DNA of 32,734 nucleotides. Source: Nitrospinaceae bacterium. Lineage in GTDB: Bacteria > Nitrospinota > Nitrospinia > Nitrospinales > VA-1. Positions 7,988-13,763 of the stretch are shown here, piece by piece (position 1 is the first letter of the stretch; every line of letters begins with the position of its first letter). The translations under genes and the position numbers were made by a program. The notes beneath the pieces were generated by a model. The model was not told the DNA's origin. It saw only the letters and a program-made list of their open reading frames with translations, and made no database searches. The DNA is taken from NCBI GenBank assembly GCA_029261635.1, contig JAJDAW010000034.1, positions 1 through 32,734 on the forward strand. Reading direction: 5' to 3'.

Positions 7988-8287
7988 ATGAAACGTTATC
8001 TCCTATTAACCGTATTATTGTTCCCGTTGTGGCTGGGGTGCGCTTCAGTGGGGAAAGATTTTGACAGTGAAAAAGTCAAGAATATCCAAAACAATGTAAC
8101 AACGCAGCTGGAAATCATCGACTGGTTTGGGGTGCCTTTCAAAGAAGGTAATGAAAATGGGTACACCATGTGGACTTACCAACTCGACAAATGGAAAGCT
8201 GTGGGTGAAGTCGAATCGAAAGGACTCGTCATCCTGTTCGATGATCAAAACAAAGTAAAAGCCTACCGCTACGAATCCAGCTACTAA
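7988..8287 (+). CDS. Small lipoprotein, SmpA/OmlA (BamE)-like
   Basis: 99 aa; lipobox LWLGC; GGAGG ribosome-binding site; short beta-rich domain of the kind seen in SmpA/OmlA proteins. Confidence 0.7.
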   Translation: MKRYLLLTVLLFPLWLGCASVGKDFDSEKVKNIQNNVTTQLEIIDWFGVPFKEGNENGYTMWTYQLDKWKAVGEVESKGLVILFDDQNKVKAYRYESSY

Positions 8288-8390
8288 CCACTAGGCGTGG
8301 GGCCAATAGGTCTATTCCTGTAAAGCAGGAAAAAATTGTTGAGCTTTTCACTATAAGTTCTTTAACTTTTCTACAAGGCGGCTGTTGTAC

Positions 8391-8427
8391 GTCATCGCGA
8401 GCGACCAGAGGGAGCGCGGCGATCCAG
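8391..8427. repeat. REP-like interspersed palindromic element
   Basis: gtcatcgcgagcgaccagagggagcgcggcgatccag; complementary outer arms ATCGC/GCGAT. Resembles the widespread intergenic 'GTCATTGCGAGnnnn...GCGGCAATCT' family. Confidence 0.6.
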
Positions 8428-8479
8428 ACTATTATTACCCTTTGTCATCCCATGTTTCCTTGTAAAAGATATATCAAAT

Positions 8480-9124
8480 ATGCGTAAAATTTCTCTCATT
8501 GTCTACGACTTCGACGGTACTTTGGTAGACACTCTTTTTGATATTGCCGATTCTGTCAATCTAACCTTGGCTGAGCTCGGCCTTTCTCAGCTACCCCGGG
8601 AAACGATCCGTAAATATGTTGGGAAAGGGGTAGAGCGTTTGATGTCGCAAACCCTGAATGACACAGACATTACAGATATTCCCCGAGCGGTCTCCCTTTT
8701 TAAAAAGCATTATTCTGAAAACCTGGTCAATCACACCGATTTTTATCCCCACGGCAGGGAAATTCTCGAACACTTTAAAAATAAAAAGCAGGCTATCTGT
8801 TCCAACAAGCCGGAAGGTTTTGTGCGCCAAATTCTGGAGTCTTTGAACGGATTACAGCCTTTTGAATCGATTCTCGGTGGCGACAGTGTCAAATCAAAAA
8901 AACCCGATCCTGAAGGCCTGAACTCTATACTGGAAGAATTAAATGTTTCGGCAGGCGAAGCGGTGCTAATCGGTGACAGCCCAGTTGATATAGAGACAGG
9001 AAAGCGAGCCGGAGTTTACACTTGCGTCGTAAACTATGGCCTGGGATTCGCAGAAGAAATCGCCGCCGCCAAACCCGATTGTTCCATTGATTGTCTTTCT
9101 GAGCTTAAAGAGATTTTTTATTAG
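8480..9124 (+). CDS. gph: HAD-family hydrolase, phosphoglycolate phosphatase-like
   Basis: YDFDGTLVDT; GKGVERL; SNKPEGF; IGDSPVDIETGKRAG HAD motifs. Confidence 0.9.
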   Translation: MRKISLIVYDFDGTLVDTLFDIADSVNLTLAELGLSQLPRETIRKYVGKGVERLMSQTLNDTDITDIPRAVSLFKKHYSENLVNHTDFYPHGREILEHFKNKKQAICSNKPEGFVRQILESLNGLQPFESILGGDSVKSKKPDPEGLNSILEELNVSAGEAVLIGDSPVDIETGKRAGVYTCVVNYGLGFAEEIAAAKPDCSIDCLSELKEIFY

Positions 9125-9151
9125 CCCATTTATTTCAATGCAAGTTTGATT

Positions 9152-9179
9152 TTGGACTTTTGGCATGACGATATATAAT
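9152..9179 (+). promoter_or_regulatory. Putative sigma70-type promoter for the HD/ATPase gene
   Basis: TTGGAC (9152-9157), 16-bp spacer, perfect TATAAT (9174-9179). ATG at 9187, no Shine-Dalgarno between. Confidence 0.6.
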
Positions 9180-9186
9180 CGAGCCA

Positions 9187-12135
9187 ATGGAAATTCCACC
9201 CTTTTTTGAAAAATTAATTAAAGAAGATCACGATCTCTCCTCTGGGGTTTCCTCTACTGTCCCGAAGTTTGAAAAGTGGATGAGCCAAAGCACTTTACCG
9301 TTTTTCCCTGAATATACCGATCATAACATTAAGCATATTGAAGAGGTGTTAACCACTGCCTACGGTTTGATCAGCGACAATGCTAAGCCGTTGCTTACAT
9401 CAGGCGATGGTACGGTTTTGGTTTTAGCAAGTCTCCTGCACGATTGCGCCATGCATTTAACCGAAGATGGTTTTTTTACGTTAATTGATAAAGGTAATGG
9501 ATGGTTGCCAATCCAACCTTTTGATAATTGCTCTTGGGGCGATTTGTGGGAAGATTTTATGGCAACCGCAAGGAGATTTGATGAGCGTCAATTAATTGCA
9601 ATTTTTGGTGATTCAATATCTCTTCCAAGTCCCAATTTAAGCAAGAAAGTTTTGCATGATGAGGATAGACTTTTAATCGGAGAATTTATTCGTCGAAACC
9701 ACCCGCGTTTAGCTCATGAAATAGCCATTTACGGATTGCCAGGTATTGAAGGGAAATCGGTTCAAATTGTTTTAAATATAGAACCAAAAATTGCCGATCT
9801 TGCAGGTTTGGTAGCAAGAAGTCATGGTATGCCGCTACGTGAATGTTTCGGTTATCTGACCGATAAATTTCAATTGCGAGACTTTGGGGGAATACATGCC
9901 GTTTACCTGATGGTTTTGCTTAGAATTGCAGATTACCTCCAAATTCAGCCTACCCGTGCACCCAAAGAAGTTTTGCAAGTTCGAAAATTAAGAAGTCCCA
10001 TTTCCCAAGGGGAATGGAGTGTTCATCATTCTATAACCAATATTACCAAGGCAGGAGATGACCCGGAAGCTATTTCAATTGATGCTGAACCTCCAGAAGC
10101 AAAAATATACCTTCGGATTAAAGATTGGATTCGAGGTGTTCAACGTGAATTGGATGATTCTTGGGCAGTGTTAGGTGAAGTTTATGGCCGATATGTACCG
10201 GAAGGTTTAAGTAAGTTAAATCTTAGCCTACGGCGAGTTAGGTCTAACCTAGATAATTGGGAAGAATTTTCGGCCAAAGTTGATTATGTGCCTGCAAAAG
10301 TTTCTTTTGAATCTGCAAACCCTGATTTATTAAAGCTTCTGGTTGGGCCTTTGTATAACGAGAAGCCCGAAGTAGGTATTCGAGAGTTATTACAAAACTC
10401 AGTGGATGCAGTGAAAGAGCTTGAATTTTTTTTGAAACGCCATCCAGAGCATAGAGCTATTGAACGAATTACCCAAAAAGAAGATGTTTTAATTACCATT
10501 GAATCGGAAGACGGAGAACCAGAGTGGGTTTGTATTCGAGATAAAGGTATTGGAATGAGTTTGGATATTATTAAAAACTATTTCCTTAAAGCAGGAGCGT
10601 CTTTTAGAAAAAGTAAACCTTGGAAAAAGGAATTTGAGGATGACGATGGGTATTCTCAAGTATTAAGAGCTGGAAGATTTGGGGTAGGGATTCTTGCAGC
10701 ATTTTTACTTGGTGATCAATTATATATAAAAACTAGACACATATCTCAGCCTAAAAATAGGGGTCTGGAATTTGAAGCCGGGCTAGATATTGAAATGCTC
10801 AACCTTAAGTGGGTTTCATTACCTGTTGGAACAGAAATAAAAATCAAAATTTCAAAATCAAAAAGGGCATCTGTCAAAAATTTTCTCGACTATTATGATT
10901 TGGGAAAAGGTAAAATATCTGCTGAATGGGATTGGTATTGTTTAGAAAAACCTGTGGTTAAAAGAAAATTATTACCATTTGAAAAAGAATTGGTACAAGC
11001 TAATGTCGTTCCTTTGGAAAACTCAATTCCAAAAAAACATTGGAGAACATTTTGTCCGCCTGATTTTAAAAAGGTTCATTGGACATTCCATAAAGCTCCT
11101 TCATTGGTTTGCAATGGTTTGATTGTTTCAAGGGACAGTAAACGAGATGGAAGTTATCTCGGCTTTTCAAGAAAAAATTATAGTTCCCTTTTAAACTTCC
11201 CAAAACTTTCCATCTTTGATCCAAACGCAAATCTACCATTAAACTTGCAACGGACGCTATTAATTAATAACGCAATCCCATTCGAGGATGAACTGGCGAC
11301 TTGCCTTTTAGATGATTTTGTAGCTTTTGCTCTAACTAAAGGTCCTCAGCAGCCTATTTATTTAGACACCGCTGCGCAACTGTCATTTAAAGGTTCTAAA
11401 AACGTTAAAGATGACATTTCATGGGACTTTGATGAGAAAAATATTGACCCATGGATTTTTGGGGCAAAGGGGTATTGTTTGAATAATGAATTTCTTTTTA
11501 AGAAATTAAAATTCAGCTCAATTTTGTATATAGCATCCAGTGCTGGGAATATAAATTGTTTCAACTTTCCTAAGATTTCTGATGCAATGGGTGTGTTAAG
11601 TTATAAAAGTAATGTTGACCCTAAAATGGAAAGGTTTTCTATAGAAAGTGGCTTGAAATTTATATTAGGGTTGAAAAAAACAAAAGGCTATTTATTGAAA
11701 GGGCCAATTGGACTAAATCTTGAGTTTACAGGTCGCCGTGTTCTTTTATCAAAAAATATATTTAATAGGGTTCTGGGTTTGGGCTACATTTCCCAAGCAG
11801 TTCAAAAAACTTTGACCGAAGCTGAAAGAGAATTTGAAAATGAAAAATGGGTTTTATTAAAAATTGGGCATTGTCATGAAGAGAAATGTTTTAACTTTAA
11901 AGAGTTGATTGATAACACTAATTGGGGTGCGAGTTTAAATAGTGTATATATGTTTGCAGAAGCTTTCGTGGGAGATGGTAATGTTTTAAAAACTCCTTCT
12001 TCGATTGTCACGGATCATTGGCTAAAAACTGTAGGAAATACCTTAATTCCCTATGTGAAGGGCGATAGAGAAAAAACTTTTCCTAGGTTATATAAGAGTT
12101 TGAGCAAATATATAAAACTACATGAAAATGAATAG
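9187..12135 (+). CDS. HD-domain phosphohydrolase fused to a GHKL/HSP90-like ATPase; putative conflict/defence-type protein
   Basis: 982 aa. N-terminal HD motifs: YTDHNIKHIEEV, LLHDCAMHL, RRNHPRLAHE, LLRIADYLQ. Central GHKL motifs: IRELLQNSVDAVKE (N box), IRDKGIGMS (G1), GRFGVGILAA (G2). Long uncharacterised C-terminus. Confidence 0.88.
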   Translation: MEIPPFFEKLIKEDHDLSSGVSSTVPKFEKWMSQSTLPFFPEYTDHNIKHIEEVLTTAYGLISDNAKPLLTSGDGTVLVLASLLHDCAMHLTEDGFFTLIDKGNGWLPIQPFDNCSWGDLWEDFMATARRFDERQLIAIFGDSISLPSPNLSKKVLHDEDRLLIGEFIRRNHPRLAHEIAIYGLPGIEGKSVQIVLNIEPKIADLAGLVARSHGMPLRECFGYLTDKFQLRDFGGIHAVYLMVLLRIADYLQIQPTRAPKEVLQVRKLRSPISQGEWSVHHSITNITKAGDDPEAISIDAEPPEAKIYLRIKDWIRGVQRELDDSWAVLGEVYGRYVPEGLSKLNLSLRRVRSNLDNWEEFSAKVDYVPAKVSFESANPDLLKLLVGPLYNEKPEVGIRELLQNSVDAVKELEFFLKRHPEHRAIERITQKEDVLITIESEDGEPEWVCIRDKGIGMSLDIIKNYFLKAGASFRKSKPWKKEFEDDDGYSQVLRAGRFGVGILAAFLLGDQLYIKTRHISQPKNRGLEFEAGLDIEMLNLKWVSLPVGTEIKIKISKSKRASVKNFLDYYDLGKGKISAEWDWYCLEKPVVKRKLLPFEKELVQANVVPLENSIPKKHWRTFCPPDFKKVHWTFHKAPSLVCNGLIVSRDSKRDGSYLGFSRKNYSSLLNFPKLSIFDPNANLPLNLQRTLLINNAIPFEDELATCLLDDFVAFALTKGPQQPIYLDTAAQLSFKGSKNVKDDISWDFDEKNIDPWIFGAKGYCLNNEFLFKKLKFSSILYIASSAGNINCFNFPKISDAMGVLSYKSNVDPKMERFSIESGLKFILGLKKTKGYLLKGPIGLNLEFTGRRVLLSKNIFNRVLGLGYISQAVQKTLTEAEREFENEKWVLLKIGHCHEEKCFNFKELIDNTNWGASLNSVYMFAEAFVGDGNVLKTPSSIVTDHWLKTVGNTLIPYVKGDREKTFPRLYKSLSKYIKLHENE

Positions 12136-12325
12136 ATATTAAATTTAGATCCCACCTTTAGTTATTTTTACAATTGCATCTATTCGAAAAGCCTATTTGA
12201 ATTTCGAGATTTTTTCCTATTTATTGTCGGAATGAAAATAGAATGTTGTTGTCATTCAAATTATGTAGAAAAATCTGATATTGCCTTTATTGTGCGTTTT
12301 TTAGGGGTTTTCTGCTCTGAGAAAT

Positions 12326-12354
12326 TTGACTTTATACTGGGTAGTTTCTACAAT
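12326..12354 (+). promoter_or_regulatory. Putative sigma70-type promoter for mpl
   Basis: TTGACT (12326-12331), 17-bp spacer, TACAAT (12349-12354). ATG at 12366. Confidence 0.55.
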
Positions 12355-12365
12355 GCCTCCTTCCT

Positions 12366-13763
12366 ATGGAACCCAAAGACATTAAAAACATTTATCTTAT
12401 CGCGATTTGTGGCACAGGCATGGCTGCACTTGCCGGATTGCTCAAAAAAGCCGGGCATAATGTGACGGGCTCGGATGCTAATATTTATCCCCCCATGAGC
12501 ACGCTTTTGAGCGATGCGGGTATCAAAATATTTCCCGGTTACAAAAAGGAAAATATTTCAGAGGATATTGATCTGGTCATTGTGGGGAATGCTGTTTCTA
12601 AAACCAATGAAGAAGTGCAAGCGGTTTTAGATGCGGGTATCTCCTATACCTCGTTTCCCGCTGCTCTTTCGCAATTCTTCCTGGAAGGAAGAAAATCTCT
12701 TGTGGTGACAGGCACCCACGGTAAGACGACAACGACTTCTTTATTGAGTTGGGTTCTTGAATCGGCTCAAAGAAAACCCGGTTTCATGGTTGGAGGATGG
12801 TTGAAAAATTTTGATACCAACCACCAGGTTCCTGTAGGAGATTATTTTGTGACGGAAGGCGATGAATACGACAGTGCTTTTTTCGATAAAGGTCCTAAAT
12901 TTCTTCACTATCGACCTGATGCCTCTATTTTAACGGGTATCGAATTTGATCACGCGGATATTTTCAGTGACTTGGATCAGATCAAACAGGTTTTTCGTGA
13001 CTACGTAAAACTGGTCAAAGACATTATTCTGGTGAAATCGGATGATGAAAATATCCGCGATGTTTTACAGTCGGCATCTTGCAAAGTCGAAACCTATGGT
13101 TTTAATGAAAATGCCGACTGGCGTGTCGAGGGTTATCGGTTTGAAAAGGGATGTGGACATTTTTCGTTGTCCTTTAAAAAGAAAAAGCAGGCGGAATTTC
13201 AATTGGCGATGATAGGTCGTCATAATGTAGAAAATGCTGCTGCTGTCGCAGCGCTTTGTTTTAATCTAGGTCTGACGGCTGATGAAATTAATGTTGGGTT
13301 TCAAACTTTTAAGGGGATCAAACGAAGGCAGGAAATAGTGGGAGAGAAAAAAGGAATAACGGTTGTCGATGATTTTGCTCATCACCCTACTGCCATTGAC
13401 CTTACGATTGATGCGGTTAAAGAGGCTTACCCCGGCCAACGTGTTTGGGCGGTATTTGAGCCGAGATCGGCAACATCACGTAGAAAAGTATTTGAAGATT
13501 CTTTCCCGAAAAGTTTTTTAAAAGCAGACCGAATTGTATTTGCGGGACTGTTCGCACCAGAAAAAATCAAGGATGAAGAGCGACTTGATGTGCAAGCGGT
13601 GATCGCTTCTATCCAGAAAATGGGGGGCGTTGCGGATCATATCCCCGAAGTAGATGATATAGTAGAGTTTATAACGAAAAATGCAAAATCAGAGGATGTC
13701 ATCCTTGTCATGTCTTCAGGGGGGTTTGGTGGCATTCACCAGAAAATATTGGAAAGATTATAA
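12366..13763 (+). CDS. mpl: UDP-N-acetylmuramate:L-alanyl-gamma-D-glutamyl-meso-diaminopimelate ligase
   Basis: Mur-ligase features: IYLIAICGTGMAALAGLLKKAGHNVTGSD, VTGTHGKTTTTSLL, TEGDEYDSAFFDKGPKF, IGRHNVENAAAV, DDFAHHPTAI. Confidence 0.95.
   Translation: MEPKDIKNIYLIAICGTGMAALAGLLKKAGHNVTGSDANIYPPMSTLLSDAGIKIFPGYKKENISEDIDLVIVGNAVSKTNEEVQAVLDAGISYTSFPAALSQFFLEGRKSLVVTGTHGKTTTTSLLSWVLESAQRKPGFMVGGWLKNFDTNHQVPVGDYFVTEGDEYDSAFFDKGPKFLHYRPDASILTGIEFDHADIFSDLDQIKQVFRDYVKLVKDIILVKSDDENIRDVLQSASCKVETYGFNENADWRVEGYRFEKGCGHFSLSFKKKKQAEFQLAMIGRHNVENAAAVAALCFNLGLTADEINVGFQTFKGIKRRQEIVGEKKGITVVDDFAHHPTAIDLTIDAVKEAYPGQRVWAVFEPRSATSRRKVFEDSFPKSFLKADRIVFAGLFAPEKIKDEERLDVQAVIASIQKMGGVADHIPEVDDIVEFITKNAKSEDVILVMSSGGFGGIHQKILERL

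Follow-up and report, generated by a model that had tools for sequence, protein, structure and literature searches.

HD-CE is catalogued as a Pfam family (PF24391) and goes back to computational studies of conflict systems. Several described proteins share part of the plan of the protein analysed here. Avs and other STAND proteins combine an N-terminal effector, a central P-loop NTPase that serves as the switch, and a variable C-terminus. In VcSduA, a Shedu nuclease with a GHKL ATPase, the clamp is proposed to control the fused effector, and an entwined dimer is predicted (PMC12137116). Clover CloA and other defence dNTPases use an HD-superfamily hydrolase as the anti-phage effector (PMC12265719); in these the HD motif is canonical and accompanied by an HE dyad, and the NTase regulator is separate. 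Our literature search covered open-access papers, with subscription papers outside its scope. It returned only unrelated papers for HD-CE by name, and within it we found no paper on a fusion of HD-CE to an HSP90-type ATPase and no experiment on any such protein.

The window, a stretch of 32,734 nucleotides from a Nitrospinaceae bacterium, belongs to a draft genome in 181 contigs that is 81% complete. Between the genes gph and mpl it encodes a 982-residue protein in which an HD-CE domain is joined to an HSP90-type ATPase. The reading frame contains no internal stops over its 982 codons, and an assembly artefact in the draft genome is an unlikely explanation for the insertion. The features of the locus are as follows.

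8480..9124, + strand: gph (HAD phosphatase), left flank (Pfam, congener comparison)
9125..12325, no strand: inserted segment, from the gph stop codon to the mpl promoter (empty-site comparison with 8 congeners)
9187..12135, + strand: HD-CE/HSP90-like ATPase fusion gene, 982 aa (ORF call, Pfam)
9187..10251, + strand: HD-CE phosphohydrolase module, residues 1-355 (Pfam PF24391, 33/33 sequences, AF2)
10282..10896, + strand: HSP90-type N-terminal (Bergerat) ATPase module, residues 366-570 (Pfam, profile alignment, residue conservation)
10897..11391, + strand: HSP90 middle-domain-like module, residues 571-735 (HtpG profile alignment, Foldseek, R689)
11392..12000, + strand: hypervariable region, residues 736-938, candidate sensor (low clade identity, low pLDDT)
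12001..12132, + strand: helical C-terminal tail, residues 939-982 (IPY...R motif common to close homologues)
12326..12354, + strand: mpl promoter TTGACT-17-TACAAT, kept, right insertion edge (junction alignment)
12366..13763, + strand: mpl (Mur ligase), right flank (Pfam, congener comparison)

The protein resembles each of the described systems and departs from each. Like VcSduA, it holds a GHKL clamp, proposed as the controller of a fused effector, in a single polypeptide, but its effector would be an N-terminal HD hydrolase, where that of VcSduA is a C-terminal PD-(D/E)xK nuclease. With Avs and the STAND proteins it shares the order of N-terminal effector, central NTPase switch and variable C-terminus. 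The switch, however, is of the HSP90 type, and Pfam finds no P-loop STAND NTPase domain in the 982 residues. An HD-superfamily hydrolase, here the proposed effector, is common to Clover CloA and the defence dNTPases, whereas the present HD domain has two extra invariant histidines and is nearest to phosphodiesterases. The whole HD-CE profile and all of the invariant HD residues of the Pfam entry are retained, but the domain is joined here to an HSP90 N-terminal and middle (N+M) module and a hypervariable tail. From HSP90, HtpG and TRAP1 the protein keeps the Bergerat motifs, the catalytic Glu, Asn and Asp, the match to the middle domain and an LPLN-x-x-R loop; in contrast to them, it gains an N-terminal HD enzyme, and no C-terminal dimerisation domain is recognised in it, residues 780-934 being modelled with low confidence. 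A PADLOC scan of the protein returned no system model (top match a type II REase model, E 0.028), and an NCBIfam search gave no assignment.

The HD-CE match spans residues 40-323 (E 2e-45; 156 bits, where the cut-off is 27) and covers positions 1-262 of the 263 in the profile; the scores of this match and of HATPase_c_3 (residues 395-524, E 2.4e-8) put both domain calls far beyond chance. A sequence-only reading of the window had described one open reading frame with HD and GHKL motifs, and every motif that it quoted is present: LLHDCAMHL, whose HD is H85-D86, and RIADYLQ, with D249, in the HD domain, followed by LLQNSVDAV (N404), DKGIGM (D452) and GRFGVGI as the N, G1 and G2 motifs of the Bergerat fold. 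H46, H50, H85, D86, R169, H172, H213 and D249 are the same in each of the 33 sequences that extend over the HD domain; the homologue scan was seeded with two motifs, so that H46/H50 and residues 397-404 are partly fixed by construction while the other residues were free to vary. AlphaFold (AF2) models the domain with confidence (pLDDT 91.8). Class I cyclic-nucleotide phosphodiesterases are its nearest relatives both by profile (E 0.0015 over 42 residues) and by fold (E 0.006, TM about 0.3), and both matches are weak. On these scores we reject membership of that class and treat its enzymes as the nearest solved relatives only. The residue order H-x3-H, HD, H, H, D fits what we take to be the pattern of multi-metal HD phosphodiesterases. 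Judged by its residues, HD-CE is probably a multi-metal phosphodiesterase-like hydrolase that would act on a nucleotide or a nucleic acid.

Key residues of the Bergerat module are E400, N404, D452, G454, G456, G499, G501 and T549. In the 33-sequence alignment R399, E400, Q403 and N404, which lie in the seeded stretch, are invariant, as are D407, D452, G454, G456, F498, G499 and G501 in the rows that cover them. The similarity to HSP90 extends beyond the nucleotide-binding domain: the profile alignment spans HtpG residues 9-476, that is, the N-terminal and middle domains, and Foldseek matches TRAP1, Hsp82-type and HtpG structures over the same two domains. At residues 682-689 lies NLPLNLQR, which presumably corresponds to the HSP90 middle-domain loop with its catalytic arginine; R689, arginine in 30 of the 33 sequences, would be the equivalent residue by motif. 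HMMER left the loop itself unaligned, so the assignment of the catalytic arginine is a motif argument. With this loop the protein carries the elements of an HSP90-type GHKL ATPase with a middle domain. It is not an HtpG chaperone, scoring 59.2 bits against the curated equivalog cut-off of 371. Modelled as a monomer, the N+M module may work as an ATP-driven dimeric clamp switch.

The sequence-only reading had left the C-terminal 400 or so residues unassigned. For about 165 of these (571-735) the HSP90 middle domain supplies an assignment, whereas for residues 736-938 no confident fold emerges. The full-length AlphaFold model, built from an alignment that left out one plasmid-collection row, is good to about residue 720, and residues 780-934 are of low confidence; pLDDT in the hypervariable region is mostly under 50. 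Within the clade of the window protein this region is only 12-26% identical, as against 34-51% for most HD domains. Because of this divergence, which is the sole basis for the proposal, residues 736-938 are a candidate sensor or recognition region.

The insertion is unusually clean. In all eight genomes of the same genus the gap between gph and mpl measures about 103-119 bp, compared with about 3.24 kb here, and the orthologous site is empty in each; the gene is not conserved at this locus. The junction alignment shows that the gph stop codon is kept to the left of the insert and the mpl promoter to its right. We looked at the edges for target-site duplications, terminal direct or inverted repeats and element remnants and found none, nor are there tRNA or Rfam elements at the site. 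No homologue of the whole protein occurs in about 100 searched relatives, among them 45 from the family and the remainder of the order; four weak matches there are proteins of about 600 residues that share the ATPase domain only.

Composition sets the gene apart as well. The AT-richness that had been remarked on, increasing toward the 3' end, is borne out by a GC content that falls from 0.405 (residues 1-330) through 0.363 (331-580) to 0.336 (581-982). In a 138-gene sample of the genome the gene has the lowest GC3, 0.282 against a mean of 0.418 (sd 0.049), and its composition is thus not core-like. Its codon-fit score is high rather than low because the favoured codons of the genome end in A or T; the gene is therefore an outlier by its shift toward AT rather than simply by a foreign codon choice. 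The empty site in eight of eight congeners, the lack of a homologue in relatives, the outlying GC3 and a patchy clade that spans several phyla directly support horizontal acquisition, as the sequence-only reading had proposed.

When genome contigs were scanned with an alignment of three members, 208 encoding loci came up and 80 of them were retained; the highest identities among these are 48% to a Nitrospirae protein (partial gene) and 45% to one from Acidobacteriota. In a 43-member tree the window protein falls in a clade of 11 (SH-aLRT 100), whose other members come from seven named phyla: Nitrospirota, Acidobacteriota, Pseudomonadota, Cyanobacteriota, Planctomycetota, Spirochaetota and Bacillota. 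This distribution is patchy and transfer-like. No housekeeping function is known for any homologue. A tblastn search of plasmids and phages yielded only two real homologues, on Hymenobacter and Aliarcobacter plasmids; the remaining matches, HtpG among them, are confined to the ATPase domain, and a scan of viral contigs with the protein alone found no relative.

Several homologues lie in mobile contexts or beside defence genes. A Photobacterium homologue lies in a prophage, with a Q-like antiterminator/Dam pair on one side and an endolysin on the other (L024 8326-14050), in the orientation opposite to the flanking phage genes and 43 bp after the gene for a small membrane protein. This membrane protein weakly matches DUF4231 and a PADLOC 2TM effector model, and has homologues close to the members from Anabaena and OCS116 and to two from Amycolatopsis. 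A SLATT-like partner is found at five loci in all and a NUDIX gene at three; in Anabaena and Amycolatopsis the NUDIX gene sits between the SLATT-like gene and the HD-HSP90 gene. We note that this trio recurs in Cyanobacteria and Actinobacteria (L018 8562-13435, L045 8568-12706, L048 1646-5764). SLATT domains have been predicted in a survey to be nucleotide-regulated membrane effectors (PMC9503650).

Elsewhere, an NTase-HEPN gene precedes two Dysgonomonas members, a Polbeta-type NTase gene precedes the Nitrospirae member, and a pair of AbiLi-like and RloB/AbiLii-like genes lies directly upstream, at 7 bp, of two Bacteroidales members (L050 2-4671, L051 8202-12763). HsdM-type methyltransferases of type I restriction-modification (R-M) systems lie near three other members, one of them checked by Pfam. 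An integrase adjoins one homologue, the Hymenobacter plasmid member adjoins recombinases, and the island that holds the Aliarcobacter plasmid member also contains a Shedu gene and genes for antibiotic resistance. In Aliarcobacter the homologous sequence is broken into two reading frames (L015 11494-14315). Most close homologues are solitary, and the window gene, like its Acidobacteriota, Gimesia and Lambdaproteobacteria relatives, stands alone between ordinary genes.

An enrichment of defence genes near homologues is seen in the PADLOC families matched by 127 neighbours of homologues (332 at 1e-6, 68 at 1e-35) as against 104 control neighbours (68 and 9, respectively); the counts are of redundant models rather than independent proteins, and the single, imperfect control consists of neighbours of HSP90-like proteins of about 600 residues from the same scan, so the enrichment is indicative only.

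Within the phylum, 5 of 77 genomes encode HD-CE. In two cases it is fused to P-loop STAND-like NTPases with readable Walker A and B motifs (L011 935-3070, L012 1327-3543), and in a third it lies directly upstream of a STAND-like NTPase that matches the STAND-type sensor PH0952 with E 1.5e-9 (L007 1402-3630). HD-CE joined to STAND-type NTPases looks like a swappable effector; this supports an effector role for the HD domain, for which the HSP90 module would be an alternative switch.

Taken with the homologue neighbourhoods and the prophage carriage, these fusions lend indirect support to the conflict or defence role first read from the sequence, and we consider a defence function well supported on such grounds. 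Since homologues adjoin phage-defence genes, the protein most likely forms an immune device of a single gene, of a rare kind. We think it probable, with an appreciable margin of doubt, that the gene is a horizontally acquired single-gene conflict protein, most likely anti-phage, composed of an HD effector, an HSP90 clamp switch and a variable recognition region. We infer, rather than show, the defence function, the dimeric clamp, which part is effector and which sensor, and the control of the HD site by the ATPase. The N-terminal HD-CE domain would be the effector, kept inactive by the clamp at rest. An infection cue, treated like a client, would bind the middle or C-terminal region, whereupon ATP would drive closure of the dimeric clamp, and the HD domain would be aligned or released. 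The active HD domain could then degrade its substrate and stop phage growth or the cell.

In a more specific and tentative version, which we hold to be possible rather than probable, the protein would be an NLR-like sensor in which the HSP90 clamp stands in for the STAND switch and phage proteins are the clients, recognised by the hypervariable C-terminal region, with clamp closure turning on a phosphodiesterase-type HD effector; some lineages would add SLATT-like and NUDIX proteins to make a multi-gene system.

The weak affinity of the HD domain to class I cyclic-nucleotide phosphodiesterases, in profile and in fold, together with the SLATT-like neighbours at five loci and NUDIX at three, would also suit a regulator that degrades a signal: the HD domain would turn the signal off by hydrolysing its messenger, a cyclic or linear nucleotide, a separate SLATT membrane protein would do the killing, and the window copy would be an orphan. 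We regard this as unlikely. Most close homologues are solitary, a search of this genome, run without a positive control, turned up no such SLATT gene, and HD-CE stands N-terminal, ahead of the STAND-like NTPases, in the fusions, which looks like the position of an effector.

It is also rather improbable that the protein serves stress tolerance or proteostasis rather than phage defence, as an HSP90-family chaperone acquired for that benefit and using its HD domain to adjust alarmone or nucleotide levels. The N+M similarity with its catalytic arginine and the solitary position among ordinary genes, here and in the Acidobacteriota, Gimesia and Lambdaproteobacteria relatives, are what such a protein would show. 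Prophage and integrase contexts, neighbours of the SLATT, NUDIX, NTase-HEPN, AbiL-like and R-M kinds, congeners without the gene, the hypervariable C-terminus and the fusion of HD-CE to STAND-like NTPases elsewhere all speak against it. That the gene is an addiction or maintenance relic of a lost mobile element, with no present defence function, is very improbable, for although homologues occur in mobile contexts (plasmids, prophage, integrase) and no partner genes accompany it here, its edges lack element remnants and direct or inverted repeats, and its reading frame and catalytic residues are all intact.

If the single-gene conflict reading is correct, an HSP90-type clamp serves prokaryotic immunity as the direct switch of an enzymatic effector in one polypeptide, in parallel with STAND proteins that bear the same HD effector. 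HD-CE, a catalogued family, would gain a concrete mechanism, and HSP90 client recognition would be tied to pathogen sensing.

Three smaller features of the locus were also observed. In both the HD-HSP90 gene (9174-9187) and mpl (12349-12366) the -10 box ends 7-11 nt before the ATG and no Shine-Dalgarno sequence is visible, which suggests leaderless transcripts for the two genes. Directly upstream of gph, a small lipoprotein-like reading frame of 99 aa at 7988-8287 falls under the ORF-listing threshold. A short interspersed intergenic repeat of the type GTCATCGCGAGCGACC...GCGCGGCGATCC lies at 8389-8430; its region has 34 matches in the same genome and many in congeners.
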